Notes under the pieces: generated by a model
What the model was told of the DNA's origin: nothing
Seen by the model: only the letters and a program-made list of their open reading frames with translations
Database searches by the model: none
Part shown: piece by piece, positions 1 through 4,070 of the stretch
Layout of the letters: the number at the start of each line of letters is the position of its first letter
How positions within the stretch are numbered: position 1 is the stretch's first letter
Source of the DNA: JACRDV01 sp024860865 [NCBI: Methanobacteriota archaeon]
GTDB lineage: Archaea > JACRDV01
Length of the DNA stretch: 8,419 nt
Assembly (NCBI GenBank): GCA_024860865.1
Contig: JACRDV010000114.1
Span: 1 to 8,419, forward strand
Direction: 5' to 3'
Translations under genes and position numbers: made by a program

Positions 1-222
1 CTTTTTTCTAACTTGAAAGCACTTATGGGTAGAATATCTAATTATCCAATGAGAAAATAACTTTAAACAAAAGTAGGTCGCACTCGTGGAATACCAAATG
101 TTAGGATTTTTCTTAGGTGGATGAAGGAGCTAAATACATACGTTTAATAAATATTGCTGAATTCGGCGTTAATTATCATGTCATAGTTATTGCATGCCCA
201 ACCCTCGCATTTAGGGCAGTTG

Positions 223-252
223 GCTCACAGGTCCTATTGGTTCCCTATGAGC
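223..252 (-). promoter_or_regulatory. SECIS element 1 (archaeal type) in the 3' UTR of mvhD
   Basis: In the minus-strand RNA a 9-bp stem, GCUCAUAGG paired with CCUGUGAGC (one U-G pair), encloses a 5' internal-loop GAA (243-241), a CC (240-239), a four-base loop AAUA, a GG (234-233) and a 3' single A (232). GAA on the 5' side, A on the 3' side, and a short GC helix above the internal loop are the defining features of archaeal SECIS elements, which normally sit in the 3' UTR. The element starts one base after the terminal UGA of mvhD and contains the UAG at 247-245. Its position behind a gene with two internal UGA codons at conserved cysteine positions makes the call strong. The structure was folded by eye, not computed. 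Confidence 0.87.
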
Positions 253-253
253 A

Positions 254-649
254 TCATCCTTTTAATGGATTTAAGCCCAATTTTTGGACCATTTCGGTCA
301 TTTCTTTTACCGCTTCAACGAATTTATCTGCTTCAGCTGAAGTTATGAAATATATGTTGACTCTATCGCTTCCAAGTCCAAGATCTGCGAGCAAGCGTTT
401 AGTTAAAAGCACTCGCCTTTCAGCTGCGATATTTCCGCTGGTATATCCACACTCGCCTTTCTTTCATCCCACAACCATAACTCCATCAGCGCCTTTTTCA
501 ATAGCCCTCAGCAACAATGGAACATCGATGATCCCTGTGCATGGAACTCTGATTATTCGAACAGCAGATGCATATTGAGCTCTTGAAACTCCTGCTAAAT
601 CAGCGGCAGCATAACCTCACTTATAACATGCAAAACAAATTATCTTTAT
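254..649 (-). CDS. mvhD: Selenoprotein MvhD/VhuD-like iron-sulfur electron-transfer subunit (two in-frame UGA = Sec)
   Basis: Small [2Fe-2S] subunit that carries electrons from a hydrogenase or formate dehydrogenase to HdrA; cytoplasmic. The reading frame gives 131 residues, close to the usual length of about 140. The conserved family blocks are present: CxxC-type start with GYAAADLAGVSR, then RIIRVPCTG, then GADGVMVVG followed by KKGECGYTSGN, and a helical C-terminus. The five expected cysteine positions are C8, U11, C37, U62 and C67, and two of them are encoded by UGA (619-617 and 466-464). The 5' end is unusual. The frame has no ATG, GTG or TTG; I number from ATA at 649. A GAGGTG site (665-660) lies exactly 5 bases before a TTG at 654 that is one base out of frame. 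The end is taken as UGA at 256-254, but UAG at 247-245 is possible. The gene directly follows hdrA, the usual order. Family call very sure; start unsure. Confidence 0.9.
464..466 (-). other. Second in-frame UGA of mvhD, predicted Sec62
   Basis: The codon lies between GVMVVG and KKGECGYTSGN. The family normally has a cysteine here (GxxVAGC-x4-C-x-Y-x-SGN). It is in the same frame as UGA 619-617, 51 codons downstream, and conserved protein sequence continues on both sides for the full gene length, so neither UGA behaves as a stop. Confidence 0.88.
617..619 (-). other. First in-frame UGA of mvhD, predicted Sec11
   Basis: The codon follows CFACYK and precedes GYAAADLAGVSR. MvhD proteins have a second cysteine of a Cys-x-x-Cys pair at this place, likely a ligand of the [2Fe-2S] cluster. 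VhuD of Sec-using methanogens is a known selenoprotein. The recoding is inferred from the conserved frame and the downstream SECIS. Confidence 0.9.
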
Positions 650-656
650 CCCAAGT

Positions 657-3600
657 CTACACCTCGCTCTTTAGCAATGCTTCTAATTGAGCAATTAATT
701 GTTTATCTCTGTAATATCTTAATATCGCTGCTCCAGTTGGACAAGCGCCAGCACAGATTCCACAACCTTGGCAGAGAACTTCATTTACTTTTGCAAATCT
801 CTTTTTGTCAACTAATACCATTTCAATCGCACCATATGGGCAAACTCGTTTGCAGATCGCACATGATATGCAAGCATCTTTATCAATTATTGCTTTTATG
901 AGTTCGAGTTCAATTTGTCCCATTTTAAGAGGAATTAAAGCCGCAGATGCTGCTCCTTTAGCTTGTGCAACTGTATCGCTGATGTCCTTAGGAAATTGAG
1001 CACAACCGCATATGTAAATTCCTGATTTTCTAGTATCTAATGGGCCAAGTTTTGGATGGGACTCCTCGAAGAAGCCATCCGGTGAAAGAGTTAGCCCTAG
1101 TTTGTCAGCAAGCTCCTTTGTTCCAGGCGATGGTACAAGTGGGCAAGATAATACAACATAATCAGATTCAAGATCCAGCTCACTGCTGAGGAATTGGTCG
1201 AAAATTTTTAAAGATATTTTTTGCCCGTTAGGTTCAATACGAGGTGGATTATTAGAATGAAAATTTAAAAATGCAACTCCCATTTCTTGGGCTTTCAGGT
1301 AATACTCTTCCATCCCTCGGCCATTAGCAATAATGTCTTGATAACATACATAAACATCAGCGTGTGGATATTTCTCTTTAATAAGTTGTGCATTCTTCAA
1401 AGCAGTGTTGCAACATATTCTTGAGCAATATTTTCTCCCTTTAGTTTCACGGGCTCCAACGCATTGAATCATTGCGATAATTTTAGGATTTCCCAGTTTA
1501 TTTTGTTTTAATAACTGTTCTAATTGCAATTGCGTTATGATGTTTGGATGTGTTCCGAATCCATATTTTCCAATTGGAGTAAACTCTTGCGCTCCAGTAG
1601 CTACTATAATTACACCCGCTTTCAATTTGGTCCCATTTGGGCCTAATTTAACTTCAAAATCTCCAATATTACCTTTTACTTCATCTAAAGTGGTTGAGGT
1701 ATGCAGTATAATATTTGGGTCACTCTTTACCTGCTTAATTAGGGATTCAATTATTACAGCAGCATTTTCATTAGTTGGGGAGACTTTGTTCAATTTGGTT
1801 ACAATTCCTCCTACATCTTTTTGCATTTCTACAACATTCACTTTAAATCCTTGATTTGCAATTTCAAGTGCTGCTGTTAGTCCAGCTACTCCTCCTCCGA
1901 TAACTAATGCACTAGGTTCAACTGATACGATTTTTGACGGCACTATTTCTAAGAATTTAGCTCGAGCAACTGCAGCTCGCACAAGTTCTTTTGCCTTATC
2001 AGTTGCAGCTTTTCGGTCATACATATGAGTCCAAGAATCATGTTCCCGAATATTTGCCATTTCGAAGTAATATGGACTCAAGCCAGCTTGACGAAGAGCA
2101 TTTCTAAAAGTTTGCTCGTGCATTTTAGGTGAGCAGGCAGCAACAACTATGCGATTAAGATCTAGTTCCTTCACTTTTTCTCTAATTTTAGCCTGTGCAG
2201 GTTCAGAACACATAAAGAGGTCATCAGTAGAAAAAACGACATCTGGCAAAGACTTAGCATATTCAACGACTTTTGAGATGTCAACTGTTCCTGCTATATT
2301 TATGCCACAATGACAAACAAAAACTCCAATTCGTGCTTTATCAGGTGGTATTTCTTCGTACTCAACTTTCTTAACTTCCATAACTTTGGTAGGCTTTCCT
2401 AAGGAATTAGCAGCTGCACAGGCGGCAGCGCGTCCTTGAGCAACTGAATCTGGAATATCCTTTGGACCTTGGGCCAAACCAGCCAAAAATATGCCTTCCT
2501 TTGGTGTGGCAACTGGATTACTCTTTAAATTAAATTCTCTGAAGAAACCATCTTGAGCAAGCTCTATTCCAAGTTTTTTTGCCATTTCTGATTGATTTTT
2601 AGTTTTAATTAAGCCAGCTGATAACACAACTAGGTCGGCTTGTAATTCAATTACTTCATTGGTTATAGTGTTTATAGCTTTTACAAAGAGATTTTTTGTT
2701 AAAGAGTCTTCTATTATTTGCGCTACTCGTCCGCGAATATATTTTACCCCAAATTGTTGCTCTGCGCGCTTGCGATATTCTTCATAACCTTTACCATATG
2801 CTCTAAGATCCAAATAACATACGTAAACTTCGGCAGATGGATCATGTTGTTTAATTAGCTGAGCATTTTTAGTCGCAAACATACAACAAACGCGAGAACA
2901 GTATTGATTCGTTTTTTGATCGCGAGAACCGACACATTGAATAAAAATAACTCTTTTAGGCTCTTTTCCATCTGACAAGCGCTTTAGATTACCTTGTGTC
3001 GGCCCGGTAGGAGAGAGCATTCTTTCAAGTTGGAGAGTTGTAATTACATTTTCATAAACACCATAGCCATATTCTTTCTTAATGTGCGGATCGAACTCAT
3101 CAAATCCAGTTGCAACAATAATCGCATTTACATTTAAAGTAATTTCTTGTGATCGTTGGTCAAGATTTATTGCATCAGGGTCACAAACATCAATACACAG
3201 ACCGCAACCAATACAAAAATCCTGGTCAATTGTATATATTAGTGGAACTGCTTGCGGAAATGGAACATAAATTGCTTTTCGTACACCCAAACCTACTTCA
3301 AATTCATTTGGTATTTCTATTGGGCAAACTTCGGGGCACAAACCACAACCAGTGCACTTTTTTTCGTCAACATATCTGGACTTCTTAAGTATTTTAATAG
3401 CAAAATTACCTGCACTACTGGTTACTTCCTGCACTTCAGAGTAGGTGAGGAGATTGAGATTCGGATGGCGGGCTGCTTCAACTAATTTTGCGGCTAAAAT
3501 TCACATAGCACAGTCATCGGTAGGGAAAGTCTTATTTAGCTGAGCCATTCGGCCGCCTAAGCTTGGGCTTCTTTCAACTAGATGCACCTGATAGCCTTGG

Positions 3601-3668
3601 TTTGCTAAATCAAGCGCAGCCGTTATGCCTGCTATTCCTCCACCGATAACTAAAACCGATTTTTCCAT
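657..3668 (-). CDS. hdrA: Selenoprotein HdrA, CoB-CoM heterodisulfide reductase iron-sulfur/FAD subunit A, duplicated-module form
   Basis: FAD- and iron-sulfur-containing core of the electron-bifurcating heterodisulfide reductase complex; cytoplasmic. It starts at ATG 3668, 5 bases after GGAGGT (3679-3674), and has 1003 residues against about 650 for ordinary HdrA. Module 1: FAD-binding GGGIAG (about 9-14), the segment DCAM-Sec56-IL where the family has DCxxCI, an inserted 2x[4Fe-4S] ferredoxin (C105/108/111/115 and C152/155/158/162), and the YCSRVCC motif (257-262). Then a complete HdrA N-terminal domain (VCHCG at 451-455, C487, C512). Module 2: GGGVAG (591-596), with no cysteines at the DCxxC place (reads PTNENAAV) and no ferredoxin insert, but YCSRICC retained. 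Last, a C-terminal 2x[4Fe-4S] ferredoxin (C933/936/939/943, C966/969/972/976). The UGA at 3503-3501 would make an ordinary caller start at GTG 3434 and lose 78 residues. mvhD follows at once. HdrA identity is certain; Sec is very likely. Confidence 0.95.
660..665 (-). promoter_or_regulatory. Ribosome binding site for mvhD (GAGGTG)
   Basis: GAGGTG overlaps the last codons of hdrA. At the N5 spacing used by dsrE and fkp in this window it points to TTG at 654-652. That TTG runs TTG GGA TAA and stops, while the MvhD frame is shifted by one base. The site therefore suggests that the true start is this TTG and that a base is missing in the GGG run at 652-650, or that the frame is changed during translation. 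Confidence 0.55.
3501..3503 (-). other. In-frame UGA of hdrA, predicted Sec56
   Basis: Upstream of the codon the frame reads [12 protein letters not shown] and downstream [14 protein letters not shown], which is the conserved HdrA block normally written TFPT-x-DC-x-x-CI-L. The UGA replaces the second cysteine, a ligand of the FAD-proximal iron-sulfur cluster. HdrA of Sec-using Methanococcales is a known selenoprotein in this segment. Confidence 0.93.
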
Positions 3669-3803: not shown

Positions 3804-4070
3804 CTAGGATTGTTTGAGCTTTGCTGCCGATATTTTTATTAATGAACCCAATTCATCTGCGAGAGCTTGCATTTCATCCTTTAAGAATTCTTCTATGGTT
3901 TTTTCTGAGCTAAGTATTTTAGCCAGTTCCTTTAGAACTTTACATTTCCCTCTCACACTATGTAACTTCTGCTGAACAAATATCGGAGGCCCTTTAGCAA
4001 GCTCATCTTCAGCCACTTTTTCAAGGGTTTCTATGTCTTCTAACAACTCTTTTGCTTTCAATTCTACCAC
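3804..4070 (-). CDS. Small helical protein of unknown function, 88 aa
   Basis: I do not recognise this protein. It has 88 residues, highly charged, with almost only helix-forming stretches (KAKELLEDIETLEKVAEDEL at 4-23 and EEFLKDEMQALADELGSLI at 60-78), a short break with GPP at 27-29, one cysteine (C43), and no signal peptide or membrane segment. A coiled-coil or helical-bundle fold is likely. The start taken is GTG 4070, which has no ribosome site; TTG 4061 would fit a leaderless transcript from the AT-rich block about 26 bases upstream. It ends with TAG, 135 bases before hdrA on the same strand, so it may share a transcript with hdrA, but no functional link can be shown. The divergent neighbour is the phosphoesterase. 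The long clean frame and codon use make it a probable real gene. Confidence 0.6.
   Translation of the reverse strand: MVELKAKELLEDIETLEKVAEDELAKGPPIFVQQKLHSVRGKCKVLKELAKILSSEKTIEEFLKDEMQALADELGSLIKISAAKLKQS

Follow-up and report, generated by a model that had tools for sequence, protein, structure and literature searches.

The locus at positions 254 to 649 raises the question of whether a reading frame broken by internal UGA codons is a selenoprotein gene or the remains of a dead one. It lies on the reverse strand of an archaeal contig of 8,419 nucleotides, the whole of which was analysed and is called the window here. We suggest, with a probability of about 0.92, that the locus is the second gene of an archaeal hdrA-mvhD selenoprotein pair. 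UGA would be decoded as selenocysteine (Sec) at codons 11 and 62 of mvhD and at codon 56 of hdrA, a single SECIS element at the 3' end of mvhD would direct Sec insertion, hdrA included, and a third UGA, inside the SECIS core, would act as the terminator. Sec insertion itself, the use of the SECIS for hdrA as well, the start of mvhD, the partner subunits and whatever selenium changes in the chemistry are our inferences. The features are as follows.

254 to 649, minus strand: mvhD/vhuD (FlpD, PF02662) coding sequence, with UGA taken as Sec at two codons and the terminating UGA included; the first codon, ATA at 649-647, is a proposal only
617 to 619, minus strand: UGA codon of the predicted Sec11, at the family cysteine after strand 1
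464 to 466, minus strand: UGA codon of the predicted Sec62, at the family cysteine where strand 3 ends, in GUxxxEC
254 to 256, minus strand: third UGA, read as the stop, after ...NPLKG; it supplies the UGA of AUGA in the SECIS core
206 to 269, minus strand: SECIS at the mvhD 3' end, supported by covariation
258-260 with 213-215, minus strand: lower stem of the SECIS, with AUGA (254-257) opposite AA (220-221)
244-252 with 223-231, minus strand: 9-bp stem of the SECIS, with GAA (241-243) opposite A (232) and a CC/GG ministem (239-240 with 233-234)
657 to 3668, minus strand: hdrA with two FAD domains, 1003 aa when TGA is taken as U, upstream of mvhD and in the same direction
3501 to 3503, minus strand: UGA codon of the predicted Sec56 of HdrA, in FPTDDCAMU

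With TGA translated as U, the frame 254-649 is open from end to end, has U at residues 11 and 62, and holds no TAA or TAG. The first-pass annotation had proposed a hidden mvhD/vhuD with two internal UGAs, and had named a profile search of the read-through translation as a check. This search bears the proposal out, since the product matches Pfam FlpD (PF02662) over profile positions 1-123 of 123 with 153.3 bits (E 3.8e-45), the curated cut-off being 22.3 bits. When the whole genome was searched with PF02662, the locus scored 143 bits, with two TGA codons inside the match. The product also aligns by phmmer to MvhD-type chains of solved complexes, the top one being 9sfi_K (151.5 bits), which has X at both UGA positions in the alignment. 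All five family Cys/Sec positions are present (C8, U11, C37, U62 and C67). An AlphaFold2 model, made from a 25-row alignment (A1, which consists of 24 of the 41 mostly bacterial contig loci plus P0001), has a pLDDT of 90.3 and a pTM of 0.85. Searched against a structure library without 9sfi, it matches 5odc_D, the MvhD of the Hdr-hydrogenase complex (Z 22.6, rmsd 1.7, 137 aligned, 42% identity), and 7bkb_F (Z 22.6), and the first row from outside the family comes at Z 9.9; thus the fold is that of MvhD. A search of viral contigs gives no relative. The MvhD tree (75 rows, 127 columns) gives the window no settled place among the methanogen-like and Asgard-like rows, and its group 'bact' (39 rows) wrongly takes in five archaeal loci (L034, L035, L036, L043 and L048).

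The product had also been called complete. This holds for the domain, which is matched whole, and fails at the start, since none of ATG, GTG and TTG occurs in frame after the upstream TAA (673-671) and before mvhD reaches its first Sec codon. The codons that follow this TAA are AGA GCG AGG TGT AGA CTT GGG ATA AAG ATA ATT TGT TTT GCA TGT TAT AAG. Thus, mvhD either has a non-canonical start, or is started by frameshift from hdrA, or has lost its start by mutation or sequence error. The ATA at 649 would fit as the start, and the GAGGTG stretch before it is readable as a ribosome-binding site. The strongest of the rival explanations is that MvhD has no start of its own: ribosomes would shift by +1 near the hdrA stop and produce an HdrA-MvhD fusion. 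In its favour are the lack of a canonical start and the place of the hdrA stop, TAG at 657-659, which immediately precedes the conserved region; hdrA adjoins mvhD on the same strand, 7 bases before ATA 649. Fusions of HdrA and MvhD are known in nature, one on contig C132 of the same genome and others as the type Ia HdrA in the consulted portion of PMC12054007. The Cys-type mvhD of contig C67 (L068, about 6781, minus strand), directly after an hdrA, is likewise without an in-frame ATG, GTG or TTG, and for this startless pair (650-670 in the window, and C67) a non-AUG start, a frameshift fusion and a sequence error are listed as alternatives. However, an in-frame ATG, GTG or TTG is found upstream in the other 28 of the 29 TGA-bearing mvhD genes, the putative ribosome-binding GAGGTG, picked out by eye, ends 10 nt before ATA 649, and a single-base change or an assembly error would be simpler. 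We therefore consider a frameshift fusion improbable, and keep to a separate mvhD gene.

The first-pass annotation had further claimed that both UGAs replace family cysteines, and the wider family agrees. We compared 122 distinct MvhD domains (129 rows minus duplicates and contained sequences), a set that is enriched for selenium forms because TGA-bearing matches were fetched on purpose. In this TGA-enriched set, Sec occurs at column 11 in 34 domains, at column 62 in 31 and at both in 26, whereas columns 8, 37 and 67 have it in none, and there is no UGA elsewhere in a domain. Four of the 122 are without one of the five Cys/Sec (L053, L057, L069 and L145) and were kept. PF02662 is present in at least 109 of the 297 genomes searched. 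In 23 chosen genomes, including that of the window, TGA is found in 30 of 115 PF02662 matches, twice in 26 and once in four, one of these four being a fragment (G009:C1:562251, L126) that is in none of the alignments; at least one two-TGA match occurs in 15 of the 23. Decay of the frame in related genomes, which had been named as the sign of a pseudogene, is not what is found, as 26 of the 30 TGA-bearing matches keep both UGAs. Among 41 mostly bacterial loci, ten have one UGA (five at column 11 and five at column 62) and none has two. Since UGA stands at 11 or at 62 alone in some loci, both columns serve as exchange points, each also on its own. We label some families 'methanogen-like' (f10, f23 and f42) or 'Asgard-like' (f53), going by SECIS type and by SepSecS in three genomes. 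Identity to the window MvhD is 54-65% for the methanogen-like rows (12 of 12) and 41-55% for the Asgard-like rows, where 10 of 14 were compared and those of other length (L114, L122, L124 and L125) were skipped. Two Sec near the MvhD cluster would be the common state among the collected archaeal selenium MvhDs, Cys/Sec exchange being confined to columns 11 and 62. The collection offers a clean basis of comparison for the question of why selenium serves at an electron relay.

The first-pass annotation was silent on the SECIS, as it was on the third UGA and the missing start codon. A SECIS core could be assigned, by script or by eye, in 26 of the 29 TGA-bearing mvhD genes, and 11 and 10 of these 26 loci went into two alignments; neither of these includes L102 and L104, whose loops are longer, or L067, L115 and L119. 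The first alignment, A2, has 11 rows, the window and ten SECIS from methanogen-like mvhD loci. In A2, 97.4% of the cells pair, and both partners have changed in 31 cells, where shuffling gives 9.1 on average and none of 500 shuffles reaches 31; sliding the structure by 1-3 columns lowers the pairing to 31-62%. Two weaker measures, further pair types and pairs with a double change, were matched in 194 and 41 of the 500 shuffles, respectively. The window has the kink-turn motif GAA_A, in which GAA faces A, with CC/GG pairs on top and a G-C pair underneath, and the A2 pairs 30-41, 31-40 and 26-43 are formed in all 11 rows. These features assign the window SECIS to the methanogen kink-turn type. 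With a covariance model trained on A2, the window scores 67.3 bits genome-wide, the next match being at 15.3; the window score is not independent, since the window is a training row. The second alignment, A3, consists of ten Asgard-like loci, is 96% paired and has nothing from the window genome in its training. Over 52 kb, its model ranks the window first (17.9 bits, E 0.12), which is not significant alone, yet lies where a SECIS is expected. The same is true of its second match, right behind selD (L163 1175-1239, 17.8 bits, E 0.13). This selD site has a 9-bp stem and an AUGA_GA core, directly behind the Sec-type selD. In folding against shuffles, the 64-nt SECIS has a z of -2.49, and the whole 253-nt 3' region, with a z of 0.35, folds no better than shuffles. 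An Rfam search of the window gives nothing up to E 1, and RF00031 has no match in the genome. According to the portion consulted of PMC11881835, M. maripaludis requires the kink-turn-like motif and cannot use a lokiarchaeal SECIS. Elsewhere in the genome, the mvhD of C132 has no convincing SECIS (at most 7.7 bits with the R1 model and 9.7 bits with the R2 model), and the sole candidate at the expected place behind the mvhD of C147 is weak (8.1 bits, E 2.8).

The genome (1.54 Mb in 160 contigs, 92.45% complete) has several Hdr/Mvh clusters and part of the Sec machinery. PF02662 has eight matches in it, with two TGA codons in the window (C68) and in C147, one in C132 and none in the other five. 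SelB is found with 297.5 bits (cut-off 242.25), its match running up to the edge of contig C153. SelD has 260.8 bits (cut-off 125), and its single in-frame TGA stands in GUACK. A PSTK homologue on the same contig as SelB scores 195 bits (E 8e-58), under the curated cut-off of 290.5, as does the PSTK of genome G095. For comparison, among 14 control genomes, matches of any strength occur in 14 for SelB, in 14 for SelD and in 9 for PSTK, and matches over the cut-off in 2, 2 and 1. If the PSTK homologue is accepted, the tally of Sec machinery is three (SelB, PSTK and SelD). In this 92.45% complete assembly of 160 contigs, SepSecS (TIGR03531) was not found and no tRNA-Sec scored over the cut-off. 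The two best tRNA-Sec candidates are tRNA-Ser(tga) and tRNA-Ser(gct) by ARAGORN, and a tRNA-Sec match in L012 ('anticodon cc') reads by eye as an intron-bearing tRNA-Arg. The GC content is alike in seven stretches of the genome (0.356-0.392), which argues against gross contamination.

These results bear on whether the locus is a decaying pseudogene, with the UGAs as ordinary stops and the start codon gone. The three in-frame UGAs, the absence of an ATG, GTG or TTG start, and the failure to find SepSecS and tRNA-Sec in the genome would agree with decay. However, the frame has no TAA or TAG, and most changes from the C132 paralogue are at third codon positions (0.28, 0.20 and 0.60 mismatches per codon position). 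Both internal UGAs fall on cysteine columns common to 25 other two-UGA matches, the SECIS is intact, and SelB and a Sec-type selD are present. We reject the pseudogene as very improbable on conservation, SECIS and machinery. Because the UGAs are on family cysteines, the SECIS is supported by covariation, and SelB, a PSTK homologue and a Sec-type selD are at hand, the window at 254-649 is most likely a selenoprotein gene. Thus, a gene that ordinary ORF calling overlooks is very probably real.

The third UGA is best read as a stop. Many homologues end near 254-256 (PNPLKG, PNPLKA and similar), and, by our reading, UGA ends the frame in 7 of the 29 TGA-bearing mvhD genes, the terminating UGA being inside the SECIS core in four of the 29 (the window, L114, L117 and L124). 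That it too encodes Sec, giving a C-terminal Sec-Cys-Ser tail, has the slightest chance of all: though the frame does run on for two codons (UCS) to TAG at 245-247 and two relatives have a Cys near the C-terminus (QCG and QCR; L103 and L109), its position within the SECIS core, which is 359 and 206 nt downstream of the two Sec codons in the window, the endings of the homologues and of the other TGA-bearing genes, and the frequent overlap of UGA stop codons with the AUGA motif in Lokiarchaeia (PMC11227280, in part) make it unlikely.

What selenium might do at the cluster can be approached from the conservation of the five positions. A [2Fe-2S] cluster usually has four protein ligands. In the AlphaFold2 secondary structure, all five Cys/Sec lie at or just past the ends of strands 1-3, so they could face, and share, one pocket. 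Column 11 is lost in 3 of the 122 domains (S, S and N), column 8 in one, and columns 37, 62 and 67 in none. No other conserved cysteine is lost as often as that at residue 11, so the cluster may do without Sec11 as a ligand. These small numbers mildly favour 8, 37, 62 and 67 as ligands, with Sec62 among them and Sec11 close by, and mildly suggest that Sec62 is the likelier ligand of the two. The first-pass annotation had spoken of a diselenolate-ligated or mixed Se/S cluster, which is an unproven proposal. In the portions consulted, the literature searches found no residue numbers for the [2Fe-2S] ligands of MvhD. PMC12350162 and PMC6019823, as far as consulted, support an electron path through MvhD.

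The neighbouring HdrA had been credited with a Sec56, and 9sfi_A agrees in having X at this position. Residues 2-378 of the window HdrA correspond to 143-520 of 9sfi_A, 446-610 to 5-169, and 852-1000 to 503-651, and the N-terminal Fe-S domain stands in the middle, between two FAD domains. It resembles the 'type II' HdrA of PMC12054007, going by the portion consulted. Upstream of hdrA in the window (3804-4070, minus strand) is an 88-aa frame without a Pfam match at E 0.001. The HdrA of C147 (L067 8908-10887, minus strand) has two UGAs, one in the usual FPTDDCAMU and one in an N-terminal VGVYICKUGVNIG, which holds the only U among 39 distinct such N-terminal motifs in the collected loci. On C132 (L066, 1890-7893), a Sec-hdrA, a one-Sec mvhD and a Cys-type hdrA-mvhD fusion stand in a row, with no convincing SECIS in this stretch.

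There is a further question of where this lineage stands. The Sec-using archaea named in PMC13188914, in the text consulted, are Methanococcales, Methanopyrales and Asgard, and no title on another Sec-using archaeal phylum appears among the matches listed in our literature searches. The genome is the only member of its family and phylum among the genomes searched, and the f53 genomes, with their Lokiarchaeia-like SECIS, are related to it at 'same domain' only. This would place the Sec trait in a further archaeal phylum, if the ranks follow GTDB and f53 is Asgard. We tentatively hypothesize, while thinking it somewhat doubtful, that the organism is a Sec-using archaeon outside Methanococcales, Methanopyrales and Asgard. 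Its mvhD SECIS would join the methanogen GAA_A kink-turn with a stop-containing AUGA_AA core as in Lokiarchaeia, its selD SECIS candidate would be Asgard-like, its elements would be intermediate between methanogen and Asgard SECIS, and UGA would mean Sec twice and stop once in one frame. If the phylum is truly separate, the picture of how the Sec trait is spread among archaea and of where the SECIS core came from would have to be redrawn.

Several known systems come close to this locus, and the suggestion that a two-Sec MvhD is new does not stand. The legend of Fig. S5 in a 2022 paper, of which part was consulted, states that 'vhuD contains two TGA codons' in M. maripaludis (PMC9622424), and Table 1 of a 2026 review, likewise seen in part, gives two Sec for MvhD/VhuD, and the review mentions that some FrhD/VhuD have multiple Sec (PMC13188914). 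To these come the two-UGA MvhDs in 15 of our 23 chosen genomes and the double X of 9sfi. The VhuD of M. maripaludis, other Methanococcales and Methanopyrus is like that of the window in its two UGA codons and a nearby hdrA, and the methanogen SECIS, as described in the consulted portion of PMC11227280, has the same GAA_A kink-turn with [A/G]UGA_[G/A]A. The SECIS core, however, overlaps the stop in the window, whereas it is 13-22 nt after the stop in 12 methanogen-like loci; compared with Methanococcales and Methanopyrus, the window HdrA has two FAD domains and the genome is listed outside their phylum. Among the selenoproteins of Asgard archaea, HdrA and FrhD are the most abundant and are said always to be found together, and the UGA stop often overlaps AUGA in Lokiarchaeia, as it does in the window (both from the portion consulted of PMC11227280). 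The FrhD/MvhD that we call Asgard-like, a label which is our inference, has two UGAs at the same columns in 14 of 14 TGA-bearing matches among 40 in four f53 genomes. Its SECIS (A3) has an A-rich apical loop and is without the GAA_A and CC-GG top of the window. Bacterial one-Sec MvhD (Desulfofustis, Syntrophobacteraceae, Zixibacteria and Chloroflexota) has UGA at 11 (5/41) or at 62 (5/41) and, unlike the window, at both in 0/41. The MvhD- and HdrA-type chains of PDB entries 9sfi and 9t1s have X at both MvhD Sec positions and at the HdrA Sec position, and X in chains A and K of 9sfi would stand for Sec. Thus, the kind, place and number of Sec in MvhD are already known, and the gene in the window is a new instance in an unplaced lineage.
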